Source: Bacteroidales bacterium (GTDB lineage: Bacteria > Bacteroidota > Bacteroidia > Bacteroidales > P3). From it: DNA of 56,088 nucleotides. Below the pieces are notes generated by a model. It did not search any database, had not been told where the DNA came from, and saw nothing but the letters and a program-made list of their open reading frames with translations. This document shows, one piece after another, positions 37,703-56,088 of the stretch. Within the stretch, counting starts at the first letter, position 1. Each line of letters opens with the position of its first letter. Where the stretch lies: assembly GCA_017940465.1 (NCBI GenBank), contig JAGAYN010000012.1:1-56088 (forward strand). The letters run 5' to 3'. Position numbers and translations under genes: made by a program.

Positions 37703-37775
37703 TCTTTTAACTTAAGAATGAAAAATATAAATTAAAAAAAAATCTATAACCTATAACCCATAACCTATAACCTAT
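37703..37775 (-). repeat. AT-rich repeat array B, copy 3
   Basis: On the minus strand it reads as TAGGTTA/TGGGTTA 7-base units and then a T-rich TTCATTC end. It is in the opposite orientation to copies at 1.8 and 13 kb. It starts within the stop codon of the giant gene and fills the gap to the aldo-keto reductase. Confidence 0.8.
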
Positions 37776-43700: not shown

Positions 43701-44074
43701 TAAACCTCCGTGAGGTCCGACATGGGCACCCAATCGCTTTTCGTGGAGGTCACATCCATGGTGGTGGTACCCATGTAGATGGTGATGTTCGGGGCCACAA
43801 AGGTGGCGGGAACGGCTTTGCTCTGGAACGCAATGGCGCTGATCACGCCTCCGGCAGGGAGGTCGAAGTTGCTGGCATTGTAAATGCTTTGGGTCCAGGC
43901 CTTGGCTTTCGAGTTGCCGAACGGCGTATTCGCATTGGCCGTCGCACCTGTGCCAATCGTAACCACTTCAGCACCCTGTGCAGCAGCCGGCATCGCATGG
44001 CCGGTCATCAGTAACAACACTCCAAGGCATGCGCCTTGGATCATGGTTTTGACAAACTTCAATGTCTGTTTCAT
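37772..44074 (-). CDS. Giant secreted InlB-type-repeat protein with T9SS tail
   Basis: 2100 residues. A signal peptide (about 1-33, ending MPAAAQG) leads to an N-terminal adhesin-like beta domain (about 40-215), a fibronectin-III domain (about 217-305, PLNLVTGLETRTSVELKWSK) and a second beta domain with FnIII (about 310-570). Then come about 18-20 repeats of 70-75 residues of the divergent InlB B-repeat type, each with a core like GSVNTTGGDYAYGSQVTLVA and HYRFVKWSDG. The end is a type-A sorting domain (LHVEGAEGRSVRVFDAVGRL ... GVYLVQVGS). It should be exported by the type IX system and held at the cell surface, probably as an adhesin. Confidence 0.92.
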   Translation of the reverse strand: MKQTLKFVKTMIQGACLGVLLLMTGHAMPAAAQGAEVVTIGTGATANANTPFGNSKAKAWTQSIYNASNFDLPAGGVISAIAFQSKAVPATFVAPNITIYMGTTTMDVTSTKSDWVPMSDLTEVYSGNEAQPLAAGWHTIELDTPYDYNGMENLVIAVLRDGASASSSMNYGFTNMSGKTGVFMMMNDATGHPGTAAANTRNAMLANIKITVTPNAGCRPPLNLVTGLETRTSVELKWSKPEESIPVAYHIEYGEEGFVRGTGVTTVTADTTVTLRGLQPTQRYDAYVRSICGDGDTSFAPASIRFTTVCTPQDLPYSDDFTSCDAYPTYHPANNLPMCWAFPNLSATESDYPKIYVSNGRYLMMQTKGGSEPAVAVLPVMATSVENSVLSFNCVKGNDITAQYGYIIDPNDASSFVPLGTISQETYHRIDLEEDFETIPYGARLAFRAVPTSGAETFLAFYSVAVDPSPACKMPIQAAIDSSHLEARSVRFTWSGLQNQGETYRVRYVVIGQTDTTTVTGIHAQNYQAEGLVSGYNYVFYIDKLCEGAYTDADTVYAATLGLVRVSSGQPDWGYVVGPEYGTIGDMSTQRAYAYPHYHFKSWSDGRTDNPRPFNYSNEITQNSFTAEFAPDTNTLTVNVNDAAFGSVNTTGGDYAYGSQVTLVATPAPGYTFAGWSDGTLTATYNYTVESDAVITAYFCDETQVRIVGTLSIPSLGTIVTVPASGIVNPGETVTVMASLTDTTHYDFQWVPAPANVSSSGMVRVAEVVAGTESQVVAGVLTPKKYQVTATVNEPTLGSVNGTGIYEYGSQVTLVATPERNVRFVQWRGSAFSNANPLTVNVDGNKNLIANFERDSITVVVNTSYAERGNVYLRTQGGPTSMRVAVGDTVGLVATANTHYSFHNWSNSNTAPTQIITAWGSNGSTRTYTAYFQPDMMEISAVANMRTWGAVDGTAVYGYGSNAFLEATPYDHYFFIRWDDGSTDNPYRPLVTGNKTYTAIFGAEALSITAGVDDPLHGSVAVSGEIYYSGTVTLTADTLDGWSFKAWVNSAGDTVSRSRIYTYQAFEDAYFKACFYKTNYHVLVTATPGMGEIVGGDIEGDYKFGDPIHAVTRLLDSLRYEFVGWSHSGDTSAVLDYSVDSSLTITAVYREKDQYNLTISSSNTAWGTVSTDRTSYYPGEVAIIRATPAPHYRFVKWSDGTADSALNLRIITMTESLTLTAIFAPERYGLSVEVNDRNKGYVTGAGMYEYNTDAVLTAVAFEGQYFEGWNGQPSSMPTLTVHITGDTTVTASFATTNVDIQVSGIFATTTGSGTYPYGDSVVISATPNTHYEFSHWGDGSTFNPRTIVVDSTENYIAHCSPRRYTITGTPNEPSFGYVTGSDTRPYGSQASRLEAFANPHCHFLRWSDGVITASRVITWDTNVAYTAIFVRDSFNVQLVDADPDYGSVNTAVNGRYVYDTRLLLLATPNQGVQFASWSDGDTLNPRIIVVSEDITGLTAYFDSADYRIDTATNDNLKGHITLSPAKSFYRYGETVDVSYVNHDTNLYRFVAWEDGTTAPVRTVSMTEDRSVMAIFDEADKYSVAVVSSDPTLGEALGSAYSVDNGTTHTVIARPAPHCHFLRWSDNGSTDTVRTITLNGADFIAVALFAQDSVSIQVNVSHPERGYVAGIANGIPLSLPYGSEVSLLAVGNTNCPFEGWSNGVAGENYTFTLTQDTVLTANFSIDLFLTAVPSDAAMGSVLVDPLQNVYSYNESVTLTARTSDTARYRFVAWSDGVSDSVRTLTLTENVHLVALFTEVNQYVVAAVSADSDLGTVSCSATTVYPGTEVTLEATPSQHGRFLRWSDGSTDALRTVTVTSDTILIAFFDVDRYTVSLEGGHATLFGAGTFRYGDSVTVCAFPDQGYIFRSWHDIYGTLLSTDPCYTFLPEEDVTLMAFTEAEDVRYTVTAQAYPLNTGRVLVTIAGATTNSGHFGDTVFVVAQAHDGYAFGYWTSNSLPWAAHIANETFSFVLTEDVTLEAHFIASVGIDDVEQDGVRIRTEANILHVEGAEGRSVRVFDAVGRLVVSHAAVAPHLQTVLPGTGVYLVQVGSDTPRRITVIR

Positions 44075-44135
44075 ATCGCGTATTTATTTATATTATAAAT
44101 CATTACACCCACTCCCCACAGAATGGATGGAAGTG

Positions 44136-44143
44136 CAAAGGTA
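44136..44143 (-). promoter_or_regulatory. -7 box before the giant secreted gene
   Basis: Minus-strand TACCTTTG lies about 60 bases upstream of the ATG at 44074. A clear -33 box is not visible. Confidence 0.55.
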
Positions 44144-44227
44144 CAAATATTTTCGCTACCTTGAACTATTTTTATATTAACAATACTTAAAAAGCCTCCC
44201 CGTCCACCCCCCCACCCTCCGGGCACC

Positions 44228-44301
44228 CTGTAGGTATCCTCCAGGTATCTACAAGGTATTTACTTCGACTGAGAACCGATATGGACCGTTATGAGCCACT
44301 T
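44228..44301 (+). repeat. Dispersed 11-base-period element A, copy 5
   Basis: Units CTGTAGGTATC, CTCCAGGTATC and TACAAGGTATT, then the core TATTTACTTCGACTG and ACCGATATGG-type units. Its right end overlaps the last codons and stop of the minus-strand gene at 44289. Confidence 0.85.
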
Positions 44302-45029
44302 GTGCGCCTGGGGATGGTGTTGCGGAGGAGGCGCAGCTGGTTGCCGTCGCGCATGACGCCGTGCTCCAAGCGGCTGTAGGTGAAGGCTTTGCCGTGGCGG
44401 TCGACGAAGAGGCTGGCGGCAGTCACCCAGCGGCCCGTCGGCCCGTTTCCGGCGCGGCACAGCGCACCCGGCTCCTCCAGCAGGGCCGCCACCCAGCAGT
44501 GCAGCGCGTTCTGCCCTTTGAGCCACTTCACCGTGCGGCGCCGGCGGAAAAGGTCCTCGCCCGGGCGGTAGTAGCCCAGCCCCTGGCGGAGGTCGGCCTT
44601 CACGTCCGGACGCGCCTCGATGTAGCCCATCTCCACGAGGCGTTCCGCCATGTCCTCGATGGCGTCCATGAGGTGGCCCTCCGGTGGCCGCGCCGCCTCG
44701 AAACGCAGCTCGGCAAAGGCGGCGCCGTTCTCCCACACCTTGTTTTTGCGCACACCGCTATCACACCGACGCTCTCTGGGAGGCTTCAGGGAGAGCCGCC
44801 GCTGCTCGAAACGCCCGATGGCCTCGATGCGGTCCAGACAGGCCTGCCCGAAGGCCAGGTCGAAGTGGCGCTCGCTGCACTCGTAGAGGATGCGCTTCTG
44901 CTCCCCATAGTCGGCTCCCGAGGCTACCAGGGCCTTGTAGACAGCGGCCTCCAGCGCCTGCCCGTCGGCAGACGCTCCGGCCTCGACCGTGAGTCCGTAG
45001 TCCTTTTTCAGCCATTCACTCGGTTCCAT
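44289..45029 (-). CDS. Protein of unknown function
   Basis: About 246 residues from MEPSEWLKKDYG (45029); an in-frame ATG at 45050 is possible. It is rich in Arg, Glu and Leu and mainly helical, with no signal peptide. A conserved-looking segment is TVKWLKGQNALHCWVAALL. I recognise no family. It is divergent from an HTH gene next to DUF6266, so it may belong to an accessory or mobile cluster. The stop codon lies inside repeat element A. Confidence 0.65.
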   Translation of the reverse strand: MEPSEWLKKDYGLTVEAGASADGQALEAAVYKALVASGADYGEQKRILYECSERHFDLAFGQACLDRIEAIGRFEQRRLSLKPPRERRCDSGVRKNKVWENGAAFAELRFEAARPPEGHLMDAIEDMAERLVEMGYIEARPDVKADLRQGLGYYRPGEDLFRRRRTVKWLKGQNALHCWVAALLEEPGALCRAGNGPTGRWVTAASLFVDRHGKAFTYSRLEHGVMRDGNQLRLLRNTIPRRTSGS

Positions 45030-45112
45030 CGCAGGGAAAGGAAGTCGCAAAAACGTATATAACGCCTGTATTCCAGACGGTTAGTTCTTCTTGGTTGGTT
45101 GGATTTCCTTTG

Positions 45113-45143
45113 CAAAAATAATCATTCCCAACCACTCCGCAAA
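45113..45143 (-). promoter_or_regulatory. Promoter of the unknown gene 44289-45029
   Basis: Minus-strand TATTTTTG (45113-45120) with TTTG (45140-45143) exactly 19 bases upstream, a full consensus match. Confidence 0.85.
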
Positions 45144-45250
45144 GAAAAGATATCAACAAAATACCAACAACATTACACCATTATAACACCACCTCCCACA
45201 CCGTTCCCACACACCGGAAAACGCCCTCTCCGCTTCGTTGCGGAAAGCGC

Positions 45251-45258
45251 TACTTTTG
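45251..45258 (+). promoter_or_regulatory. -7 box of the HTH gene promoter
   Basis: TACTTTTG on the plus strand lies 66 bases before the ATG at 45324. The -33 region is not clear. Together with the minus-strand promoter it makes a divergent control region of about 290 bases. Confidence 0.55.
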
Positions 45259-45323
45259 CCGACGAATTCGATGCGCAGCGAATCAGCAGACAGAAAAACA
45301 ATCATCAAAAAATTGCAACAACC

Positions 45324-45779
45324 ATGAAATTACACGAATTGCAGCGGCTTGCCAAAGCCCTCGACATCGACATCGAACAACCGTCGAACCTCATCTACAT
45401 CTTCTACAGCACACCCGACGGACGGGTGAACACACTGACCGTGAGCATGAAACGCGCCAAGTTGCCCAACGGGCGCAACATGAGCGACGCCGACCTGGCC
45501 GCCCTCATGCAGGAGTATCCCGACGCCCGCGACGGCCGCATCATGGCCGTGGAACGCCCGCGCGGCAACCTGCACCGATGGGTGGACCGCGAGGACGTGA
45601 AGCAGATCCTCCACACCTCCACCTCTACCATCAAACGCTGGGAACGCCTCGGCCTGCTGCACCCCTCACGTATGGGCCGCAGGATATACTACGACGCCGG
45701 AGAGGTGGACCGCGTGCTGGAAAGCAACATCATCCAGGAGAACGGACGGCTGGACAAAACCGCCCTCGACCTGCACTGA
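45324..45779 (+). CDS. Helix-turn-helix (HTH_17/MerR-like) protein
   Basis: 151 residues from MKLHELQRLAKALDIDI. An N-terminal region of about 75 residues is not recognised. The C-terminal half (about 86-145: WVDREDVKQILHTSTSTIKR, LGLLHPSRMGRRIYYDAGEV) is an excisionase/MerR-like winged HTH. It may control the two neighbours, one divergent and one (DUF6266) about 200 bases downstream. Confidence 0.78.
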   Translation: MKLHELQRLAKALDIDIEQPSNLIYIFYSTPDGRVNTLTVSMKRAKLPNGRNMSDADLAALMQEYPDARDGRIMAVERPRGNLHRWVDREDVKQILHTSTSTIKRWERLGLLHPSRMGRRIYYDAGEVDRVLESNIIQENGRLDKTALDLH

Positions 45780-45987
45780 GGGCGCCGATGCCCAAAGGGT
45801 CCATAGCGGACTTTATCGGTCCAGGTACGACTTTATCGGCTCGATTCCGGACACCTCGGCCAAAGGACCTTATATTGCAAATGTCGTCGCGACCGACACC
45901 GCCCCGACGCCCGACGGGGCCAAGGGCAAACCAACAACAATTCAAACCAAACAATTCATCAATCAAAAAAAAGAAAGGAAAAAAATC

Positions 45988-46641
45988 ATGGGAAAAATCA
46001 ATCAAGGTATCCTCGACGGATTCAACGGAAAAGTGGGCACAGTGGTAGGCTACTTCTGGAAAGGCAAGCCGGTGATGCGCGGCTACAAGCGCTTCATGCA
46101 CGACAAGCACTCTGAGGCCCAGATGATCGTCCGCCTGCGGTTCGCCATCCTGAGCGAGCTCGCCTCGGCCTTCCGCCCGGCGGCACTGGTGGGCTTCAAA
46201 AGCCGCTCCAAGTCGCGCGGCAATACCGAGGTGAACAACTTCATGCAGCTCAACTGGGACGCCGTGCAGGCCTTCAACACCGCCGACGTCGCCATCGACT
46301 ACGCCGCCCTCCAGCTCGCCTCCGGCAGCCTGCCGCCCGTCCAGTTCGGCTCCGCCAAGTTCGACACACCCCTGACGGTAGAGGCCTCCTTCGCCCCAGG
46401 GTCCGACCTGCCCGGCGCCAGCAACGACGACCACGTCTACCTCTTCGCCTACAACCCAGCCACCAAGATGGGCGTCATCGGCAAGGCGGCCACCCGCGCC
46501 GCAGGCAAGGCATCCGTCACCGTCCCCTCCACATGGTCCGGCGAGACCGTCCACGTATGGGGCCTCGTCTCCGGCGGCGCACCCGACACCATCGGCCGCA
46601 GCGCCGCCAGCACCTACCTCGGCGAGGGCGACATGGCCTGA
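45988..46641 (+). CDS. DUF6266 family protein
   Basis: 217 residues. The start MGKINQGILDGFNGKVGTVV and PVMRGYKRFMHDKHSEAQM are clear DUF6266 hallmarks, followed by a helical part and a C-terminal beta domain (DHVYLFAYNPATKMGV). The function is unknown; the fold may be that of a small structural or binding protein. It is distantly related to the gene at 20332-20943. A strong terminator follows. Confidence 0.85.
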   Translation: MGKINQGILDGFNGKVGTVVGYFWKGKPVMRGYKRFMHDKHSEAQMIVRLRFAILSELASAFRPAALVGFKSRSKSRGNTEVNNFMQLNWDAVQAFNTADVAIDYAALQLASGSLPPVQFGSAKFDTPLTVEASFAPGSDLPGASNDDHVYLFAYNPATKMGVIGKAATRAAGKASVTVPSTWSGETVHVWGLVSGGAPDTIGRSAASTYLGEGDMA

Positions 46642-46664
46642 AGCCCGCACCCTGCCCGAAAATC

Positions 46665-46693
46665 AAAGCCCCGGGATGCCATCCCGGGGCTTT
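46665..46693. terminator. Two-way terminator between convergent genes
   Basis: Perfect 13-base arms AAAGCCCCGGGAT and ATCCCGGGGCTTT around a GCC loop, between the DUF6266 gene and the convergent lipoprotein gene. Both strands end in a short T run, so it can serve both. Confidence 0.9.
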
Positions 46694-46729
46694 GTTCTAT
46701 TCATTTCTATTCCAATTGCGAGACTTGTA

Positions 46730-47620
46730 CTATTCCACATTGTCCAACTCTTGATCGGTGCGGAGTGAGGCAAAGTTGATATTCATCCATTTCCCCTTCT
46801 GCAACACCACATCACTTCCATTGCGGCCTGCAGTATAGGTTACATCATCTCCAACATGGAATACAATTTGATTTATCCGGACAGAATTGCCCAACATCGG
46901 TATTACCATATATGCACGACCTTCTGCATTCACCTCGAAAGCGCGATAAGTATCACCCTCATCTCCAAGTATAATACTGGTCGTGTTGTCGTCCATAGGG
47001 ACAATGGTACAATCTGCACCGACAATCCCATTGGTTTCACTCCCATCATAGTCTATGTCCACATATGCATTAGTCTCCCCGGCAAACTCCATGGGGAAAG
47101 CCATGCCAATCACAGCGCAGCAGGGATACATAATCATTTTATTGCTGGTGGTAGCCACTGCCAATGGTATCATGTCTGAATAATCCACATTGCTGTACCT
47201 GCAATTAACCGCATCCCAACTCACCGTCGTCTGCCTGGACTTACCTACATAACAGCAATAAAAATGACCATTGACAGGAAGCACTTGCGTCATGGGATCG
47301 GTTTGCTTCAATGCCTTCCACACGTCTCCATCCCTCTTCAGCATGAACAAGTGGCCATTGACCAAAATGTAATCTCCCTCTTCCCACCAGGCACCTTGCG
47401 AGTTGAGGCTCACTTTGGAACCGCCAGTGGACGAAAATTCGGGCAGTGAGACAATGAACTCTGTATAGCCCTCCTCCGGAGAGGGGTCAGTCGTGGGATC
47501 GGGCGTAGGCTCCGGGATGGGTGCAGGGGTAGGTTGCACATCTGTCTTTTCAGTGTCGCAAGATGTTGCAGCCAACATCGCCACAACAGCTGCCATGAGA
47601 ATAAATCCACATTTTTTCAT
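46730..47620 (-). CDS. Lipoprotein, possibly fimbrillin-like
   Basis: 296 residues. The signal ends LAATSC, then a Pro-rich spacer (PTPAPIPEPTPDP) and a beta-rich body. The segment SLNSQGAWWEEGDYILVNG resembles the W-x-x-GD-x-I motif seen in fimbrillin-family proteins. It is probably on the cell surface. The DNA is more AT-rich than the neighbouring housekeeping genes. It is 35 bases after a small companion gene in the same direction. Confidence 0.65.
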   Translation of the reverse strand: MKKCGFILMAAVVAMLAATSCDTEKTDVQPTPAPIPEPTPDPTTDPSPEEGYTEFIVSLPEFSSTGGSKVSLNSQGAWWEEGDYILVNGHLFMLKRDGDVWKALKQTDPMTQVLPVNGHFYCCYVGKSRQTTVSWDAVNCRYSNVDYSDMIPLAVATTSNKMIMYPCCAVIGMAFPMEFAGETNAYVDIDYDGSETNGIVGADCTIVPMDDNTTSIILGDEGDTYRAFEVNAEGRAYMVIPMLGNSVRINQIVFHVGDDVTYTAGRNGSDVVLQKGKWMNINFASLRTDQELDNVE

Positions 47621-47655
47621 AAGGAACTATTCTTTGTTGTAATAGAAAAAAAAAA

Positions 47656-47940
47656 TTAGAACCAGCCGCCACCATCCCCGTACTCGAAGTAACCGGCAGC
47701 CATACCACCGCTCGCATAACCACTTTCATTGTTTCCTGATATGCGTTGGTCGGTAGCAAACAGGTTGTTGTTTTCCATGTCCAGCGTTATCAACTCGCCT
47801 ACCTGCCTGTCGAGGTTTCTGGCCCAACCTCTGACGGGGTTGGGGTCGTTAGGGTCTGAGGATGACACAAACCCTCTCTCCATCCGGAATTCCACCACGG
47901 TCAAGCAAGGGGCTATATACATGTTTTTAGTGCTTTCCAC
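47656..47940 (-). CDS. Small companion protein ending GGGWF
   Basis: 94 residues with no signal peptide. The start NMYIAPCLTVVEFRMERGFV and the glycine-rich end YGDGGGWF match a class of short Bacteroidales proteins usually found just before a surface lipoprotein gene, as here. Their function is not known. A promoter box lies at 48024-48031. Confidence 0.65.
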   Translation of the reverse strand: MESTKNMYIAPCLTVVEFRMERGFVSSSDPNDPNPVRGWARNLDRQVGELITLDMENNNLFATDQRISGNNESGYASGGMAAGYFEYGDGGGWF

Positions 47941-48023
47941 AGTTATTAATCTTTCCTCTATCTATAAGATTATCAGTTCGAAACAAAGACCGGAAACGCT
48001 GCTTCCGTCTCTGTTTCAACTGG

Positions 48024-48031
48024 CAAAGGTA
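48024..48031 (-). promoter_or_regulatory. -7 box before the small companion gene
   Basis: Minus-strand TACCTTTG, about 85 bases upstream of the ATG at 47940. The -33 region is weak. Confidence 0.55.
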
Positions 48032-48077
48032 CGAAGTTTTTTCAATATAACTGTTAAACTCTGTTAAATTTTCATCC

Positions 48078-50522
48078 TCACAGCAACAAACTCCCCAACT
48101 GGAACACCAATGCGGAGACCACCCAGGCCAACCCGATAGTGTAGGCCATGGTGAAAACCGCCCACTTCCAGCGGCCGCTCTCGTTCTTGATGGCCACCAC
48201 AGTGGAAAGGCAGGGCATATAGAGCAGGATGAATAGCAGCATCGAGAAAGCCGAAAGGGGGGTCATGTGGTCGCGTATCAGCGACGCTATGCGGAAATCA
48301 TCGGCATCCTCAGAATATTCAGAAGACTCGGAATACTCTGAACAATCAGAGCCATCGGAATAATCCGAAGTGCTGTAGAGCACCCCCATCGTGCTGGCCA
48401 CCACCTCCTTGGCAAAGACGCCCGAAAGCAGCGCCACCGACTGGCGCCAGTCGAAGCCACAGGGGCGCATGGCAGGCTCTATCGTCTTGCCTATCTTGGC
48501 CATATAGCTGTTCTCGGCCTGCTGCTTGGGGTCCTCGTGGTAAGGGAAGTAGCTGAGTGCCCACACGATGATGCTCGCCCCCAGGATGATGGTAGCCATC
48601 TTCTTGAGGTATTCCTTGCCCTTCTCCCACGTGTGGCGCAGCACCGCCTTGGCGGTGGGCAGACGGTAGGGTGGCAGCTCCATGACGAAAGGCAGGCTGT
48701 CGCCCTTGACAAAATAGCGGCTGAACAACTTGGCCATCAGCACACTCATCACCATCCCGAGCAGATAAAGCCCCATGATGACGTAGGCGGCATGGGTGGA
48801 GAAGAATGCAGAACAGAGAATGACGTAGACCGGTATGCGGGCCGAACAGCTCATCATCGGGATGACCAGCATGGTGAGCAGCCTCGACTTGCGGTCCTCG
48901 ATGGTGCGCGTGGCCATGATGGCCGGCACATTGCACCCGAAGCCCATAATCATCGGTATGAAGCTCTTGCCGTGCAGCCCCATGCGATGCATCAACTTGT
49001 CCATGATGAATGCCGCGCGGGCCATATAGCCGCTGTCCTCCATGAAGGAGATGAACAGGTACAATATCAATATATTGGGCAGGAACACCAGCACGGATCC
49101 CACGCCGGCAATGATGCCATCCACCACCAGGCTCCGCCAGGGGCCCTCGCTCATCCCCTCCCCTATCCTCTCGCCCAACCAGGCAAACAGGCCGTCGATC
49201 CAGTCCATCGGATAGGCACCCAGCGTGAAGGTGCACCAGAAGGTGACGAACATGAAGAGGAGAAACACCGGGTAGCCCAGCCAACGGTGGGTGACAATGG
49301 AGTCCAGTCGGTCGGTGAGACTGTGGAGGGTGCTCTTCTCATTCCTGACATAGCATTCGGCCAAGGCTCCGCGCACAAAGGCATATTTGGCATCCGTAAT
49401 GGCGCTCTCGATATCCTGATGCCCGGACTCCACATCCACCTTGTGCCCATTGTCCACCACATTTTCCACCAATCGACGCCCGCTGCCCTTCTTGTATCCC
49501 TCTGCAATCTGGTCACGCAACTGCAGGGCGCTCCCGTCGGGGTCGCGTTCTGCGGCGTAGCGTTCCAGCTGGCTGTCGTGCTCCAACAACTTGATAGCCA
49601 GGAATCGGGTTGATATTTCGTCGCTGAAGCCATGCTCGTACAGGTGGGTACGCAGCTGCTTGATGTGGCGCTCCAGGTAACGCCCGTGGTTGACATGAAT
49701 GTGGCGGTAGCCGCCTCCCTCGAACACCTCTATAATCTTGTCGAAAAGCGACCCGATGCCCTGCCCGCTGCGTCCCGTGGTGGGCACGATGGGCATACCA
49801 AGCAGGGTGCTCAACTGCTCGATATCCAGCCGGTCGCCGCTCTTCTGCAGCTCATCGTACATATTGAGCGCCATCACCATCGTGATGTCCATGTCAATGA
49901 GCTGGGTGGTGAGGTAGAGGTTGCGCTCCAGGTTGCTGCCGTCCACCACGTTGAGGATGATATCGGGATTCTTCTCCAATATATGGCGGCGCACATAGAG
50001 CTCCTCGGGCGAGTAGGCCGAGAGGCTGTAGGTGCCGGGCAGGTCGGTGAGGTTGAACGTGTAGCCGCCGTATTTGAACGTGCCCACCTTCTCGTCCACC
50101 GTCACACCGCTGTAGTTGCCCACACGCTCGTGGGCGTGGGCGGCCACGTTGAAGATGCTCGTCTTGCCGCAGTTGGGATTGCCCACCAGGGCCACGTTGA
50201 TGGTCCTGCTGCGCTCCTTCGCGATGTGTTGCAACGTGGTCTCCTCGGCCTCCAGCGCACGGAAATCGTCGTGATTCGCTATCTCCCGTTCCGCCTCCTC
50301 GGGCGTGACAATCTCCACCTTCATGGCGTCGCTGTGGCGCAACGACACCTCGAAATTCATGATCCGGTACTTGATCGGGTCGTTCAGCGGCGCATTCAGC
50401 ACCGACGTGACCTCCACCCCTTTGATGAAACCCATCTCGATGATGCGCTTGCGGAAGGCTCCATGGCCCGCCACACGCGTCACCACTCCACGCTCACCAG
50501 TTTGTAAATCAGACAGTAGCAT
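48078..50522 (-). CDS. feoB: Ferrous iron transporter, FeoA-FeoB fusion
   Basis: 814 residues from ATG 50522; an upstream start would run through the promoter. An N-terminal FeoA-like SH3 domain (about 1-75, LQTGERGVVTRVAGHG) is fused to the FeoB G domain (P loop GNPNCGKTS, LTDLPGTYSLSAYSPEE), then the membrane part with GFGCNVPAIMATRTI. It takes up Fe(II) across the inner membrane. Residues about 719-739 are an added Ser/Asp/Glu/Tyr stretch (YSTSDYSDGSDCSEYSES) in a loop near the C-terminus, encoded by a 9-base repeat. Confidence 0.95.
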   Translation of the reverse strand: MLLSDLQTGERGVVTRVAGHGAFRKRIIEMGFIKGVEVTSVLNAPLNDPIKYRIMNFEVSLRHSDAMKVEIVTPEEAEREIANHDDFRALEAEETTLQHIAKERSRTINVALVGNPNCGKTSIFNVAAHAHERVGNYSGVTVDEKVGTFKYGGYTFNLTDLPGTYSLSAYSPEELYVRRHILEKNPDIILNVVDGSNLERNLYLTTQLIDMDITMVMALNMYDELQKSGDRLDIEQLSTLLGMPIVPTTGRSGQGIGSLFDKIIEVFEGGGYRHIHVNHGRYLERHIKQLRTHLYEHGFSDEISTRFLAIKLLEHDSQLERYAAERDPDGSALQLRDQIAEGYKKGSGRRLVENVVDNGHKVDVESGHQDIESAITDAKYAFVRGALAECYVRNEKSTLHSLTDRLDSIVTHRWLGYPVFLLFMFVTFWCTFTLGAYPMDWIDGLFAWLGERIGEGMSEGPWRSLVVDGIIAGVGSVLVFLPNILILYLFISFMEDSGYMARAAFIMDKLMHRMGLHGKSFIPMIMGFGCNVPAIMATRTIEDRKSRLLTMLVIPMMSCSARIPVYVILCSAFFSTHAAYVIMGLYLLGMVMSVLMAKLFSRYFVKGDSLPFVMELPPYRLPTAKAVLRHTWEKGKEYLKKMATIILGASIIVWALSYFPYHEDPKQQAENSYMAKIGKTIEPAMRPCGFDWRQSVALLSGVFAKEVVASTMGVLYSTSDYSDGSDCSEYSESSEYSEDADDFRIASLIRDHMTPLSAFSMLLFILLYMPCLSTVVAIKNESGRWKWAVFTMAYTIGLAWVVSALVFQLGSLLL
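48306..48368 (-). repeat. 9-base tandem repeat inside feoB
   Basis: Seven units of nine bases (plus-strand form ATAATCCGA), coding Ser-Asp/Glu-X triplets on the minus strand. The same unit in reverse complement makes the Asn/Pro insert in the YgiQ-type gene at 19511-19570. Confidence 0.88.
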
Positions 50523-50547
50523 AAAAGCATATTTAGTTTTCCGTATG

Positions 50548-50555
50548 CAAAAATA
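50548..50555 (-). promoter_or_regulatory. -7 box of feoB
   Basis: Minus-strand TATTTTTG, 26 bases before the feoB ATG. No clear -33 box. Confidence 0.6.
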
Positions 50556-50718
50556 CGAAAAAAACACCACACCGCCCCTCACCACTTTTAGTGAATCCCC
50601 CGCCCTCCCTCCGGCATCCCCTTCCCGCCACCCTCACATTCCTACCCAAACGCCTCACTCCACCTTCCGAACATCCATCCCCACCCCCCGAACGCCCCAG
50701 CCACCCTCCAGCCACCCT

Positions 50719-50804
50719 ATAGGTATCCGGTAGGTATCCTGTAGGTATCCAGTAGGTATTTACTTCGACTGTGAACCGTTATGAACGCTTATGGACCACT
50801 GGCC
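50719..50804 (+). repeat. Dispersed 11-base-period element A, copy 6
   Basis: Four TAGGTATCC-type units, the core TATTTACTTCGACTG, then GAACCGTTATG, AACGCTTATGG and ACCACTGGCCC. It lies in the divergent gap between feoB and the TIR operon, the one copy not 3' of a gene. The CCACCCTCCAGCCACCCTA stretch before it also has 11-base spacing. Confidence 0.85.
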
Positions 50805-50839
50805 CGGTTTTCACACTTTCCGTGCCTCGGAAAAAAGAT

Positions 50840-50870
50840 TTTGCACACTGGGATTTTATTCGTATATTTG
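50840..50870 (+). promoter_or_regulatory. Promoter of the TIR operon
   Basis: TTTG (50840-50843), 19 bases, TATATTTG (50863-50870): a full match to the Bacteroidota promoter. It is 42 bases before the ATG at 50913. Confidence 0.9.
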
Positions 50871-50912
50871 CAAACTCGATCTGCATATTTATATATATGT
50901 AAAACACTGACT

Positions 50913-52733
50913 ATGAAGAAAAAATATACGTTCTATCTCTTCTTGCTGGCTCTGATTGCGGGCCTTGAGGCGACGGCGCAGGAAACTGCCGCAGGCGAGG
51001 ACGACTGGTGCATCGACCGCCCCGACCTGCTCCAGATGATTCATGCCCCGCTGAGCGACCCCAACAACACAACACTCATCGACATGATGGACGCCAAAGG
51101 CTTCCAGCTGGGAAGCGACGTCGTGCACCGCATCGACACCGTGAGCGGCATCGCCCTCTCCTACCGCTGCCAGGTGTGGTACGCCAACGTGAGCGGCCAG
51201 CTGATGCCCGCCGTTTACGTCGGCGAGTCGGAACAGGGGCTGCCCAACGTCATCATCCTCAACCTCGACTACAGCCGCGAATGCACCTCGCAGCTCACCA
51301 ACGCCTTCCACGAGAGCGGCTACATGTACGACGGCCGCCGCAACGTATACACCGGCCGCGACGCCTACGAGAAACACTCCGGCCTCTACGAAGCGGAATA
51401 CATCGAGGATGCCGACGGCCGACGCCTGGCCGTGCGCTTTGAGAGCGATATCGCCGCCTACGTCAAGAAAGAGTCCGACCGCCGCAAGGCCCTCGTCGAG
51501 AACCGCCTCCACCGTGCCGACGAGCTGGCCAAAAGCCACCGCTACCACCTCGCCTTCACCACGCTCGACACCCTCTTCGGCTGGTACGAGCCGATGGACG
51601 AACACCTCTACCAAGCCCGGCAGGACATCGAACGCATGCAGGTGGCCCACTACCGCGCCGAACTGAAACGCGCCGTGAACGCCGACGGCGACCTCGAGGC
51701 CGGCATCCGCTGGTGCGACTCCCTGGCACGGGTGAACGCCGCCGACGACTCCATAGGGCTGGTGCGCCAGGTGCTGGTGGAACAGACGCAGGGCCGCTAC
51801 CCCAAGTACTCCACCTTCATGCCGCAAAACTACCGCTCCGTCGTCGACCGCCTCAACGACATCATCAACAAAGAGATACACGACAACCGCCTCCCCAAGG
51901 CACAGTCGATGAACTTTGAGTTCAACTTCATCACCACCCACGAAAACCGCTCCAACGGCAGCATCCAGATCAGTATGGAGCGCTCCTTCCTGCAGTCGCG
52001 CTCGAAAGAGAAGAGCCGCAACGAAGAACTGCAGACATTGGTGGACAACCTGGCCGCGCTTGACCTCATCGAGCCCGTCTCCCGCTACGGCATCACCATC
52101 AACACCCGCGAACAGTTGTCCGGACGCATAGAATGGCAGCAGAGCGAGGTGACCCTCAAAGGCGACGAGCTGGCAAACCGCAAGGACCTCAAAATCTATG
52201 TGGACAGCATCGACAACCGCTACTTCACCAACAGCGACCCCACCGCCGTGGGCAAAAACCGCATGAGGCTTCCCTACCGCAGGGACTACACCTTCGGCAT
52301 CACCCGCAAACAGTACGACGGCTCGCTCTACACCGACGTCACGCTGACCAAGTTCAAGACCTCCGGCCCCCTGGCCTGGATGCCCTCGCTCCTCATCCCC
52401 GGCCTCGGCACCAAGAAGCAGGGCCGCATCTCCACCGTCTCCGCCCGCGCCATCCCCTTCTTCCTCTTCGCCGGCATGTCGGCCGCAGGCTTCGTCCTCA
52501 AATCGCAGGACTACGAACGCACCGAATGGGGCGACGGACCCTTCTGGAAACACAAGAACTTCGACAATGCGCTCGCCTTCGGCGGACTGGCCGTTTCCGG
52601 CACCATCTACCTCACCGACCTCATAGAAAGCATCAACGCCACCGTGGTGAACCGCTCGCGCTCCAAAAAACTGCGCCAGGAACTGCGCTCGCACAACATC
52701 GACGTCCGCATCGACGAAATCCAGATCCACTAA
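50913..52733 (+). CDS. Exported protein, first gene of the TIR operon
   Basis: 606 residues from ATG 50913, with a signal peptide (about 1-23, ending LEATAQ). A mixed alpha/beta N-terminal part (about 30-200) is followed by helices that look like degenerate TPRs (about 205-330). The C-terminal part has three hydrophobic segments (about 490-590: LAWMPSLLIPGLG, ARAIPFFLFAGMSAAGFVL, ALAFGGLAVSGTIYLTDLI). It may therefore be membrane-attached from the periplasmic side. No family is recognised. An 18-base gap to the TIR gene suggests cotranscription. Confidence 0.75.
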   Translation: MKKKYTFYLFLLALIAGLEATAQETAAGEDDWCIDRPDLLQMIHAPLSDPNNTTLIDMMDAKGFQLGSDVVHRIDTVSGIALSYRCQVWYANVSGQLMPAVYVGESEQGLPNVIILNLDYSRECTSQLTNAFHESGYMYDGRRNVYTGRDAYEKHSGLYEAEYIEDADGRRLAVRFESDIAAYVKKESDRRKALVENRLHRADELAKSHRYHLAFTTLDTLFGWYEPMDEHLYQARQDIERMQVAHYRAELKRAVNADGDLEAGIRWCDSLARVNAADDSIGLVRQVLVEQTQGRYPKYSTFMPQNYRSVVDRLNDIINKEIHDNRLPKAQSMNFEFNFITTHENRSNGSIQISMERSFLQSRSKEKSRNEELQTLVDNLAALDLIEPVSRYGITINTREQLSGRIEWQQSEVTLKGDELANRKDLKIYVDSIDNRYFTNSDPTAVGKNRMRLPYRRDYTFGITRKQYDGSLYTDVTLTKFKTSGPLAWMPSLLIPGLGTKKQGRISTVSARAIPFFLFAGMSAAGFVLKSQDYERTEWGDGPFWKHKNFDNALAFGGLAVSGTIYLTDLIESINATVVNRSRSKKLRQELRSHNIDVRIDEIQIH

Positions 52734-52751
52734 CCCGCAACGAGCCCAACG

Positions 52752-53687
52752 ATGGAACGTCAGATATTCATAAGCTACTCCACCCTGGACCGCGACATCG
52801 CCTACAAGATCGTCCAGTATCTTGAATCCAACGGACACCCCTGCTGGATCGCCCCGCGCAACATCGCCTCTGGAATGGACTACACTGACGTCATCAACGA
52901 CGCCATCCAGAACTGCTCGGCACTGCTGCTGGTATTCTCCGAGCACTCGGAAAAATCGCAGTTCGTGAAAAAAGAACTCGCCACCGCGGTATCCTACAAC
53001 AAAACCATCCTGCCCTTCAAAATCTCGCAGGTGGAACTCAAAGGCGGCTTCCTGTTCATGCTGACCAACGTGCAATGGATCGACGCCACCTCGCGCCCCG
53101 AAAGCAAATTCCCCCAAATCATCGACGGCCTCTCCGGAAAGATGTCTGCAGACGACATCCCCACCACCCCCGAACCGCCCAGACGCAAATGGGGCCTCGT
53201 CGCATCCCTGGCATCCCTGGCAGCCGTGGTTGTGGCCGCCGTGCTGGCCCTCGTGCTGCTGCTCCCCTCGAAAGGCGAGGCGGAAGCGGCAGCGCCCGCC
53301 GTGGACACCCCGAAGGTCGCCGAACCGGAACCGCCCGCCGCCCCAGCCGTGGAAGAAGCCGCCACACAGCCTGCCGCTCCTGCCAAAGCCGCACCCTCCA
53401 AGCGTTCTCCTCAGCCCTCCGCCACAAAGGAGACAGCCAAAGAACCCGTCAAGGCAGAGCCCGAACCCATAGTGGAACCCGTGGCGGAACCTGCGGCAGA
53501 GCCTGCCACAACCACCCCCGCCCGCAAGGCTGACAACGACCGCGCTGTGAAAATGGGCAAAGCCCGACGCTACCTGAACAACAAGAAATACCAAGCCGCC
53601 CTCACCCTATTCGAGGAGCTGAAGCAGGAAAACCCGTCGGACAAGGCCCTCGACGCACTCATCGACGAGTGCCGCAGAAATCTCTAA
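52752..53687 (+). CDS. Membrane-anchored TIR-domain protein
   Basis: 311 residues. The TIR domain fills about 1-130: RQIFISYSTLDRDIA, GHPCWIAPRNIASGMDYTDV, ALLLVFSEHSEKSQFVKKEL. Glu75 in FVKKEL lies where active TIR NADases have their catalytic glutamate. One TM helix (about 148-172) is followed by a Pro/Ala/Glu-rich stalk (175-265) and a TPR-like helix pair (about 270-311, ARRYLNNKKYQAALTLFEEL). With TIR inside and the stalk outside, it could link a periplasmic signal to nucleotide making. It lies in one operon with an RCK/RyR protein 15 bases downstream. Confidence 0.87.
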   Translation: MERQIFISYSTLDRDIAYKIVQYLESNGHPCWIAPRNIASGMDYTDVINDAIQNCSALLLVFSEHSEKSQFVKKELATAVSYNKTILPFKISQVELKGGFLFMLTNVQWIDATSRPESKFPQIIDGLSGKMSADDIPTTPEPPRRKWGLVASLASLAAVVVAAVLALVLLLPSKGEAEAAAPAVDTPKVAEPEPPAAPAVEEAATQPAAPAKAAPSKRSPQPSATKETAKEPVKAEPEPIVEPVAEPAAEPATTTPARKADNDRAVKMGKARRYLNNKKYQAALTLFEELKQENPSDKALDALIDECRRNL

Positions 53688-53702
53688 CCAAACCCCTTCA
53701 CC

Positions 53703-55553
53703 ATGTTCAGACTGCGCCTTTGGATGAACCGCCTGCTGCAAAGCGGCATGCGAGGCTACCTGCTGGTGCTTGCCACGGCAGTGCTGGCACTGGCCTGCCT
53801 TGTCGCCATAGGCTCACTCATCGACAGCAAAGTGTGGTGGAACACCTTCTACGCCCTCGGCATCAATCCCGTCGAGAACGACCCCTCCCATCCCCACCTA
53901 TGGCTCTACTTCCTCCTGGGCGTATGCGGCGCACTCGTCTTCGGAGGCCTGATGGTAACCGTGTTCACCAGCGGCGTGGAACGCTACGTGGAGCGCATCC
54001 GCGAAGGGCAGGTACGCTACAAGCACCTGCGCAACCACATAGTCATCATCGGATGGAGCCCCGCCACCGTGAGCCTCATCAGCCAACTCTGCCAAAAACA
54101 CCCCCATGCCAAAGTGCTGCTCCTCTGCCCCTCCTCGCCCACCGGAGTAAGGGCGGAACTCATCTCCTCCCTCGCCCCCCGACAAGAACGGCGCGTCATC
54201 ATCTACGCCCTGGGAAACCTCGGCCTCGCCGACCAACTGCCTCTCCTGTGCCTCCACAACGCCATCGAACTCCACCTCACCCTCGACGACACCCTCTCCA
54301 CCTCCCGGCAACTGGCACAACTCACCCTCCTGCAACCCATCGCGCAACTGCTCTCGCACAAAAAACGCCGCGCCGCCGACCCTCTGCGCATCAACGTAAT
54401 GGTCAATGACGTAGAAACCCACCACCTCCTCCAACGGCTGGGCATCCCCAAAGAATACTATGGCCCCGACGACGGCCAGCAGACACTCGACATACGTATC
54501 TTCAACTTTTACGAGAACTGGGGCCGGCTCCTATGGGGCTACCCGGGCAAAGCGGGCTACGACCCACTGGATTTCGAGCCTATCGAGGAGGGTGACAGGC
54601 AGGTGCACCTCGTCATCGCAGGCATGGGCAACATGGGAACGGCGCTCCTCCTGCAGGCGCTGCGCGTATGCCACTACCCAAGCCCCAAGCCCACCCTCAT
54701 CACCATCATCGACCCCCAAGCCCCCATTCTCCAGCAACGCCTCCACACCCTGCTGCCCAATCTGGACGCAATCCACAATATCCACATCGAATTCCTCGAC
54801 GGCCTCCTGGAGTCCCCGACCGCAAGACAGCGCATCGCGGAATGGGCCGCGGACGAAAGCCGTCTCCTCACCATCGCCATCTGCCTCCCCGATCCGGACC
54901 AGGCACTGAAAGCGGCGCTGACCCTCCCGGAACCCGTCTTCTACCAACCCTCCGCCCGTCGCACCAGGACACGCGTTCTCGTGCGGCAGGCACTACCCCA
55001 ACCGCCAGCCTCCCTCATACCCACCGACCAATACCCCAACCTGCATCTCTTCGGCTCACTGCCCGAAGGCTTCGACATCGACCTGCTCGACGACCGCCTC
55101 CCCATCACCATCAACGGCCTCTACTGGGACAACCTCTTCGGCTCCTTCACCCACGCCACCTCCACACCAGAGCCGACTCCGCCCTCCGCCCTCCTGACAC
55201 CCAACTATGAAAAGTGGCAGCAGCTTTGGTTCGACATAAACAAGACACCCGAAGCATCCAAGATCGCCTCGCGCTACCAGGCCGACCGCTTCCGCTCACT
55301 GATCGCCATCCTCCAGCGCCACCATGCCGCCCCCGACGACACCCTCGTCGAGCGCCTGGCTGAAAGCGAACACCTCCGCTGGGTCGCCGAACGCACCCTC
55401 GCCGGCTGGCGTGCCACACTCCCAGGCGAACAGCGCTCCAACACCCTCAAACTCCATCCCAGCCTCATCCCCTACCAACAACTGACTGAATCCGAAAAGC
55501 AAAAAGACCGCAACGTCATCGCCTTTGCCGCCACCCTCGCCACCCCCCTCTGA
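53703..55553 (+). CDS. Two-TM channel-like protein with RCK/TrkA-N and RyR domains
   Basis: 616 residues. Two TM helices (about 18-40 and 66-89) flank a short re-entrant-like segment, SKVWWNTFYALGINPVEND, in the position of a pore loop but without TVGYG. This resembles CASTOR/POLLUX-type channels. Two Rossmann-like domains follow: HIVIIGWSPATVSLISQL (about 111-270) and HLVIAGMGNMGTALLLQAL (about 305-430). The end (about 510-610) is a RyR domain: AESEHLRWVAERTLAGWR, LHPSLIPYQQLTESEKQKDR. RyR domains have been proposed to bind nucleotides from NAD metabolism. The partner TIR gene precedes. Confidence 0.82.
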   Translation: MFRLRLWMNRLLQSGMRGYLLVLATAVLALACLVAIGSLIDSKVWWNTFYALGINPVENDPSHPHLWLYFLLGVCGALVFGGLMVTVFTSGVERYVERIREGQVRYKHLRNHIVIIGWSPATVSLISQLCQKHPHAKVLLLCPSSPTGVRAELISSLAPRQERRVIIYALGNLGLADQLPLLCLHNAIELHLTLDDTLSTSRQLAQLTLLQPIAQLLSHKKRRAADPLRINVMVNDVETHHLLQRLGIPKEYYGPDDGQQTLDIRIFNFYENWGRLLWGYPGKAGYDPLDFEPIEEGDRQVHLVIAGMGNMGTALLLQALRVCHYPSPKPTLITIIDPQAPILQQRLHTLLPNLDAIHNIHIEFLDGLLESPTARQRIAEWAADESRLLTIAICLPDPDQALKAALTLPEPVFYQPSARRTRTRVLVRQALPQPPASLIPTDQYPNLHLFGSLPEGFDIDLLDDRLPITINGLYWDNLFGSFTHATSTPEPTPPSALLTPNYEKWQQLWFDINKTPEASKIASRYQADRFRSLIAILQRHHAAPDDTLVERLAESEHLRWVAERTLAGWRATLPGEQRSNTLKLHPSLIPYQQLTESEKQKDRNVIAFAATLATPL

Positions 55554-55617
55554 ACCCCGAACTCCCCCCTCCGCCCTCCGCACCCACCTCCGAACTCCTA
55601 ACTCCGCCCTCCGCACT

Positions 55618-55694
55618 CGGTAGGTATTTGGTAGGTATCCGGTAGGTATTTACTTCGACTGAGAACCGATATGGACGCTTATGGACCGTTTGCC
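55618..55694 (+). repeat. Dispersed 11-base-period element A, copy 7
   Basis: Seven 11-base units with the core TATTTACTTCGACTG and ACCGATATGG, GACGCTTATG units. It lies between the ends of the convergent RyR gene and the sorting-tail gene. The preceding 55554-55617 is a C-rich stretch with CTCCGAACTCC-like repeats and no gene. Confidence 0.85.
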
Positions 55695-55700
55695 GCGAAA

Positions 55701-55755
55701 TGGTCGCTGCAAAAACGGCGAGGGAGGCGTGACAGCAATGCCGTGCCTCCCTCGC
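55701..55755 (-). terminator. Terminator of the sorting-tail gene
   Basis: Arms GCGAGGGAGGC and GCCTCCCTCGC around a loop of about 16 bases, then CGTTTTTGC on the minus strand, 25 bases after the stop. Confidence 0.8.
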
Positions 55756-55779
55756 GGAACGTCATTCCGTTTGTTCTAT

Positions 55780-56088
55780 CTATTTGACTATTAGGCGTCT
55801 GGCATCGTTCCCCTCGGCGGAGCGGAGGTGCAGCGTGTACACCCCGGCCGGCACGCCCTGCAACTCAATCCTGGCGTGGCCGCCCTCGAGCCGCTGCGAG
55901 AGGTGCAGGCGGCCCTGCGCGTCGCGCAGTTCCAGGCTGCCCTCGGGCACCTCGGCCGTCACCTCGACATACTCATTGGCCGGGTTGGGCTTCACCTCCA
56001 GCGCCACGGGCTCCATGTCGGGACGGATGCCGACGGTGGCCGGCAGGCGGTAGCCGGGGCTCCAGGGGCTCCAGACGGTCATGTTGCC
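55780..56088 (-). CDS. T9SS-sorted protein, C-terminal part (truncated by window)
   Basis: The frame is open to the window end, so only the last about 100 residues are seen. They form a type-A sorting domain: VKPNPANEYVEVTAEVPEGS, LELRDAQGRLHLSQRLEGG, GVPAGVYTLHLRSAEG, ending RRLIVK. The protein should be exported by the type IX system. The domain carried upstream cannot be known from this window. Confidence 0.85.
   Translation of the reverse strand, partial: GNMTVWSPWSPGYRLPATVGIRPDMEPVALEVKPNPANEYVEVTAEVPEGSLELRDAQGRLHLSQRLEGGHARIELQGVPAGVYTLHLRSAEGNDARRLIVK

Follow-up and report, generated by a model that had tools for sequence, protein, structure and literature searches.

We analysed a stretch of 56,088 nucleotides (hereafter the window; contig JAGAYN010000012.1 of assembly GCA_017940465.1, from a Bacteroidales bacterium) which contains an operon of three genes, encoding a putatively membrane-anchored protein (gene 1), a membrane-bound TIR protein (gene 2) and a channel-like protein ending in a ryanodine receptor (RyR) domain (gene 3). 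The original prediction, made from the sequence of this DNA, was that the TIR protein makes a nucleotide signal which the RyR-bearing protein reads to open or close a pore. On balance we lean towards the operon being a membrane-bound TIR signalling unit in which an ADP-ribose-type signal would gate an RyR channel, resembling Thoeris with a channel effector. The features of the operon, in window positions, are as follows:

50840..50870, + strand: Bacteroidetes-type promoter TTTG-N19-TATATTTG
50913..52733, + strand: gene 1, 606 amino acids (aa), signal-peptide-like start by eye, homologues in 10 of 148 genomes
52752..53687, + strand: gene 2, protein with a TIR domain, a transmembrane (TM) segment, a stalk and a TPR-like tail, 311 aa (Pfam, alignment)
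52764..53117, + strand: TIR domain of gene 2, residues 5-122, with Glu75 (TIR_2 E 9.8e-22, over the Pfam cut-off)
53184..53288, + strand: TM segment of gene 2, residues 145-179 (hydropathy)
53535..53684, + strand: TPR-like C-terminal tail of gene 2, residues 262-311 (TPR_2 E 0.035, below cut-off)
53703..55553, + strand: gene 3, two-TM (2TM) RCK-type channel-like protein with a C-terminal RyR domain, 616 aa (Pfam, 21-sequence alignment, profile matches)
53733..53981, + strand: two TM segments of gene 3, about residues 11-30 and 64-93, around a pore-like loop (hydropathy, alignment)
55338..55520, + strand: RyR domain of gene 3, residues 546-606, with His557, Trp560, His585 and Asp602 (PF02026 E 3.1e-11)

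As predicted, the three genes are co-directed and closely spaced, with 18 and then 15 bases between them. The single promoter expected ahead of them was also recovered: the pattern TTTG-N17-23-TAnnTTTG, which we take to be the Bacteroidetes promoter consensus, was matched once on the + strand between 50585 and 55553, at 50840-50870, and 4 times in the whole window when both strands were searched. A match also precedes gene 1 in a close relative (locus L032, genome G004), and the consensus was unmatched in the stretch searched at the other 8, more distant gene 1 loci. The start of gene 1 was taken as the ATG at 50913 because the promoter falls within the longer open reading frame (ORF), which begins at 50781. 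Base composition probably accounts for an antisense ORF of 901 aa (50889-53594, - strand) which extends over gene 1 and the greater part of gene 2; in gene calling by longest ORF it is misleading, as it hides the TIR gene of the window. Our search for TIR neighbours was made on all ORFs rather than on the longest ORFs alone.

The architecture proposed for gene 3, of two TM segments, two Rossmann-type domains and an RyR-like C terminus, was borne out by hydropathy, Pfam and the alignment of 21 sequences. By hidden Markov model the C-terminal domain is recognised as RyR, with PF02026 scoring 43.8 bits vs a curated cut-off of 27.4, and phmmer aligns it with RyR1 and RyR3 chains (5c30, 3.2e-9; 9c1e, 4.2e-9) and with entries named 'Putative ryanodine receptor' (3nrt and 6uag). 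A further hydrophobic segment, at residues 165-184 within the first Rossmann domain, probably does not span the membrane. A profile of the 21 sequences, including that of the window, matches BK over the TM segments and RCK1 (E 0.0013) and DMI1 over RCK (E 8.8e-5), with weak matches to CASTOR, MthK and the 'TrkA domain protein' 4gx0, presumably GsuK. The first 250 positions of this profile match proteins of mostly 630-720 aa in a class-wide sample. Castor_Poll_mid was unmatched in the gene 3 protein (Pfam, E up to 1), and the TVGYG potassium filter was not found in its sequence. In sequence terms the protein is remotely related to CASTOR and BK, and its pore loop is unusual. Its original description as CASTOR-like holds as a remote profile relation but not as a match to the Castor_Poll_mid domain.

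Gene 2 had been described as a TIR protein with one TM helix and a glutamate placed for catalysis, and this agrees with the strong TIR_2 match, the presence of Glu75 and the single TM segment; ThsB_TIR barely exceeds its Pfam cut-off. The column of Glu75 is a glutamate in 64 of the 67 TIR domain matches and a gap in 3, certain loci being counted twice. By eye, all ten of the TIR proteins linked to gene 1 have a TIR domain, one TM segment, a low-complexity stalk and a TPR-like tail, a plan which is kept in G018, G039 and G057 though the TIR domain there resembles another subtype. The genome from which the window comes (94% complete) has one TIR_2 match and one RyR match, both within the operon.

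TIR genes and relatives of gene 3 were found to lie near one another well beyond the window. Near-full-length members of the family of gene 3 (hereafter the RCK-RyR family) were present in 29 of the 148 genomes, and 13 of 34 such genes had a Pfam TIR_2 match at a distance of up to 8 kb, where 0.38 would be expected from TIR density. We also assembled a wider set from the 148 genomes, 58 loci from named Bacteroidales records and 20 fetched loci, from which RCK ORFs of < 500 aa were excluded; merging at 90% identity reduced its 80 ORFs to 75. TIR lay within 10 kb of 33 of these 75 distinct proteins, on the same strand in 29 of the 33, and a same-strand TIR lay within 200 bases of 15; a separate RyR gene was present within 10 kb of 36. 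Where no less than 8 kb of sequence was available to each side, a TIR lay nearby for 12 of 28 proteins. As a control, TIR was found in the fetched flanks of none of 20 CASTOR-like channel genes without RyR (Fisher 1e-4); these genes gave the 20 best matches in the class sample that did not extend beyond the N-terminal channel part, certain of their flanks being < 10 kb, and weaker or fragmentary matches (G521, G354, G227, G164, G510, G259 and G225:C53) were left out. The one control protein which was checked for the CASTOR domain, from L134, contains Castor_Poll_mid. Both kinds of channel are present in G304, where TIR lies beside the RyR-like one only.

Within the family, an adjacent TIR was found for 14 of the 44 members which match a local RyR profile vs 1 of the 31 which do not (p 0.003, relatedness ignored), and a TIR within 10 kb for 24 of 44 vs 9 of 31 (p 0.035, relatedness likewise ignored). 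Outside the order to which the window belongs, 3 of 4 RCK-RyR-like genes in the class-wide sample adjoin a TIR gene; these four were the only loci counted out of 20 additional ones, which came from earlier lists of matches and were in part chosen for TIR, gene 1 or RyR. Pfam placed one of the four RyR domains over its cut-off (G184) and two below. PF02026 is rare in the class, with matches in 7 of 396 genomes, 4 of them over the cut-off. The architectures found among the TIR partners included SIR2-TIR, TIR x3, TIR-WD40, TIR-FGE, TIR-Sel1 and TIR-TPR, a variety which would be expected of interchangeable signal makers.

Some of these loci merit description in their own right. Proteins with a C-terminal TIR domain are encoded near small RyR and RCK-RyR-family genes in L063 (9316-10674), L099 (13520-14920) and L122 (12503-13825), and the one of the three which was checked, from L063, has a SIR2-like N-terminal part. 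In L058 (9037-10539) and L060 (8532-10031) the channel gene has gene 1 with its TIR gene to one side, and to the opposite side a gene whose protein combines TIR with an FGE-sulfatase-like part; in the one checked, from L058, TIR_2 was just under the cut-off. L061 (6190-10776) encodes, upstream of a small RyR gene and an RCK-RyR-family gene, a DUF4062-TPR protein in which NACHT was matched below threshold; its family is reported as TIR-like NADases in PMC13174449. We also considered carriage by viruses or plasmids and set this idea aside: P0003 matched 1 of 72,556 plasmid records, where the match was limited to the RyR part, and 2 of 50,697 phage records, which are unverified scaffolds from faeces; the one with a partial RCK gene at its end may be of bacterial origin; no relative was found among the 60 stretches of viral_contigs that matched the search patterns. 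RyR-domain matches as such were found in 250 of the 50,697 phage records, including Salmonella, Pseudomonas, Aeromonas, Arthrobacter and Gordonia phages, and most of those among the matches listed were annotated as hypothetical or under unrelated names.

The RyR domain of gene 3 also carries residues with a known role in a phage protein. According to a 2026 preprint (PMC13232231), H75, W78, H100 and D117 serve phage RyDEP in binding and cleaving 2' and 3' cyclic ADP-ribose (cADPR), and of eight other phage RyR proteins 6 bound the signals and none cleaved them. H557, W560, H585 and D602 of the window protein correspond to these four residues by spacing (3, 25 and 42, as in RyDEP, once a three-residue insert is removed from the window domain), a correspondence which rests on spacing and not on alignment to the RyDEP sequence. 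Of the 75 RCK-RyR-family proteins, 60 have HWHD and 7 have KWHD; among 43 separate RyR ORFs, HWHD occurs in 33 and HWTD in 8. Judging from these residues, the RyR domain of the window likely binds an ADP-ribose signal; conservation of HWHD would be compatible alike with a receptor, an enzyme or a sponge.

The three genes were found together elsewhere, as the original prediction required. In a rumen metagenome-assembled genome, RUG13023 (G004), they occur in the same order with 67, 65 and 60% identity, and comparison of this locus (L071) with the window, by blastn of positions 40001-56088 and tblastn of the window ORFs, found the operon and a dispersed repeat only, the flanks of the two operons being unrelated. 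Homologues of gene 1 were found in 10 of the 148 genomes, counting that of the window, all belonging to the same genus. A near-full-length RCK-RyR-family gene is held by all 10 of these genomes, within 5 kb in 6 of them; in G039 and G057 the channel, a small RyR gene, gene 1 and the TIR gene are co-directed in a different order, and the arrangement in G027 and G079 has a divergent channel gene. A TIR-TM gene directly follows gene 1 in 10 of 10.

Gene 1 was originally proposed to encode an exported sensor. Its protein does have a signal-peptide-like N terminus by eye but is not simply exported, since hydropathy reveals two C-terminal hydrophobic segments (residues 511-529 and 553-571), both of which are present in 8 of the 10 homologues and one of which is present in the remainder; these segments suggest anchoring in the membrane. 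The proposed role as a sensor can be given a more specific form, as it is the TIR-TM-TPR protein, and not the channel, that gene 1 accompanies from genome to genome. Because gene 1 always stands before a TIR protein with a stalk and TPR-like tail, the pattern points to contact between its product and the periplasmic part of that TIR protein. No relatives of gene 1 were found in Pfam, PADLOC, NCBIfam or PDB, whether it was searched alone or with nine homologues. PRTRC_E matched 3 of the 10 homologues (best E 2e-4) and not the window protein, and was judged unreliable.

The observed domains, key residues, operon layout and two co-conserved pairings (TIR with the RCK-RyR family, gene 1 with the TIR-TM-TPR protein) can be combined in the following model, whose catalysis, ligand, gating, ion, trigger and defence role we infer from sequence. 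In the periplasm, part of the membrane-anchored gene 1 protein and, from the TIR protein, its stalk and TPR-like tail would jointly sense something in the envelope. The cytoplasmic TIR domain would then turn NAD+ into an ADP-ribose-type signal, probably a cADPR isomer, and this would be bound by the C-terminal RyR domain of the 2TM-RCK protein, gating its pore. The gated pore may alter ion flow, halting growth or protecting the envelope, so that the system would behave as a Thoeris whose effector is an RyR-gated channel. The switch originally predicted stands as far as its domains, operon and co-conservation are concerned, and the idea that the TIR product is read by RyR gains support; NADase activity, ligand, flux and defence stay at the level of prediction.

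The RyR domain might instead be an off-switch, hydrolysing or sequestering the TIR product as phage RyDEP does, with the channel part regulated for another purpose. His557 and Asp602 match the RyDEP catalytic dyad in spacing, and the separate small RyR genes within 10 kb of 36 of the 75 family members could themselves be off-switches. However, none of the eight other homologues tested in PMC13232231 cleaved the signals, whereas six bound them, so the dyad is no proof of catalysis, and fusion to a 2TM-RCK protein better fits a receptor, which makes an off-switch rather unlikely in our view. Two observations lead us to prefer a receptor role: RyR is fused to a channel-like protein, and it is the RyR-bearing channels that TIR genes tend to adjoin. 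The same adjacency bears on the possibility that TIR is a plain NADase and that the channel reads the loss of NAD+, with NAD(H) being read by the second Rossmann domain, which carries GMGNMG (residues 307-312; GxGxxG by eye) and weakly matches NAD_binding_9 (304-385, E 0.015, below cut-off). This we consider very unlikely, as it leaves unexplained the adjacency of TIR to recognisable RyR, the absence of TIR beside RCK channels without RyR, and the conserved HWHD. It is also unlikely that the operon is a housekeeping module for envelope or osmotic stress in which TIR is a protein-protein adaptor and there is no nucleotide signal: such a module would suit the periplasmic or membrane-bound appearance of gene 1 and the TIR tail as well as the housekeeping look of the neighbouring genes, but not the patchy distribution of gene 1, the retention of the glutamate in nearly all TIR matches or the many architectures of the TIR partners.

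It should be noted that several observations weigh against a TIR signal gating the RyR channel. The exact three-gene order was found in just one other genome, and among the 10 genomes with gene 1 the gene 1-TIR pair and the channel gene are on separate contigs in 4 and divergent in 2. TIR is absent within 10 kb for 42 of the 75 family proteins, including several Bacteroides, Phocaeicola, Barnesiella and Heminiphilus loci, and it is still missing for 16 of the 28 that have 8 kb or more of flank to each side; two of the 33 nearest TIR matches are short pieces of 67 and 75 aa. The TIR profile for the wider set was seeded with TIRs from these loci and may favour them, a bias of which the Pfam-based count of 13 in 34 is free. 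The linkage tests ignore relatedness, and the control genes come mostly from other families. Pfam recognises RyR in 22 of the 75 family members (E 0.001 or better) and the local profile in 44, RyR being identified in the remaining members from four conserved columns; a TIR still lies within 10 kb of 9 of the 31 members unmatched by the profile. Similarity of gene 3 to BK and CASTOR is modest and it lacks the K+ filter, and the neighbours of the operon in the window look like housekeeping genes by Pfam and PADLOC.

Defence genes, which had been expected nearby, did not appear: ten window ORFs searched with Pfam and ten with PADLOC (eight common to both) contained no convincing defence gene, the sole PADLOC match being a weak one to dGTPase (7e-5). 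A defence island is thus unsupported for the window and partly supported for its relatives, certain of which adjoin further TIR, NACHT-like, MADS-like or E1-E2-like genes. Elsewhere in the window, a protein of 2100 aa (37772-44074, - strand) has InlB-type B-repeats (Flg_new_2) and an fn3 domain by Pfam. The dispersed repeat GTAGGTATTTACTTCGACT occurs with 0-2 mismatches at 514, 28470, 31032, 36576, 44252, 50752 and 55642, all seven copies being on the + strand and apparently intergenic. Tandem GGTAGGTATCC-like units precede it at both operon-side sites, and a related form of the repeat flanks the operon in L071. Its presence on both sides of the operon raised the idea of a mobile cassette, which was rejected because the genome has 115 copies at ≤ 2 mismatches (reversed control 0), so that no special cassette is marked.

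Whether cADPR acts on ryanodine receptors directly has long been debated. PMC13232231 describes cADPR as implicated for these receptors and leaves direct interaction to future work. The window offers a small bacterial protein with a pore-like region and one RyR domain beside a probable signal maker, in which conversion of a cADPR signal into channel gating by an RyR domain is reducible to a two-protein test. If the proposed model is true, TIR immune signalling gains a channel effector and a target is suggested for the RyR-domain proteins carried by phages. More tentatively, we propose that the Bacteroidia possess a system in which varied TIR enzymes make a cADPR-type messenger which would directly gate a 2TM RCK channel through RyR, a prokaryotic counterpart and possibly a forerunner of the control of animal ryanodine receptors by cADPR, with the form in the window wired to a periplasmic sensor. 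No TIR beside an RyR/RCK protein was described in the titles and beginnings of abstracts which we searched, and a 2025 preprint on TIR systems (Yirmiya) may contain the type.

Among known systems, the TIR-like NADases of the Swarozyc/DUF4062 kind (PMC13174449) are represented near RyR genes by the DUF4062-TPR gene in L061, but they are a separate TIR-like family and are not in the window. With RyDEP and other phage RyR proteins the operon shares PF02026 and the H-W-H-D residues at equal spacing; RyDEP, however, is a free-standing phage counter-defence protein (PMC13232231), whereas the RyR domain of the operon ends a channel-like bacterial protein beside a probable signal maker. The domain can also be aligned to RyR1 and RyR3 of the animal ryanodine receptors (Repeat12/R12), although gene 3 encodes a two-TM protein of 616 aa with a single RyR repeat by Pfam. 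CASTOR/POLLUX/DMI1, BK and MthK resemble it in having a 2TM pore-like region and then RCK/Rossmann domains, as the profile matches indicate; the order of two TM segments followed by RCK was found in gene 3 by hydropathy and by the BK match, conduction being predicted, while the protein has neither Castor_Poll_mid nor TVGYG and bears a C-terminal RyR domain. Known effector types of Thoeris include SIR2-SLOG, TM-Macro and caspase, and none of these domains was found in the three operon proteins by Pfam, PADLOC and further family searches, the partner of TIR in the operon being a 2TM-RCK-RyR protein rather than a known effector. The operon differs from Thoeris also in that its TIR protein itself sits in the membrane and has a periplasmic tail, and in the addition of gene 1, which is confined to this genus among the genomes searched. 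What it shares with Thoeris is a TIR with the catalytic glutamate (TIR_2, ThsB_TIR and Glu75 in gene 2, the activity being predicted), placed in a modular pairing beside a partner which plausibly binds cADPR.

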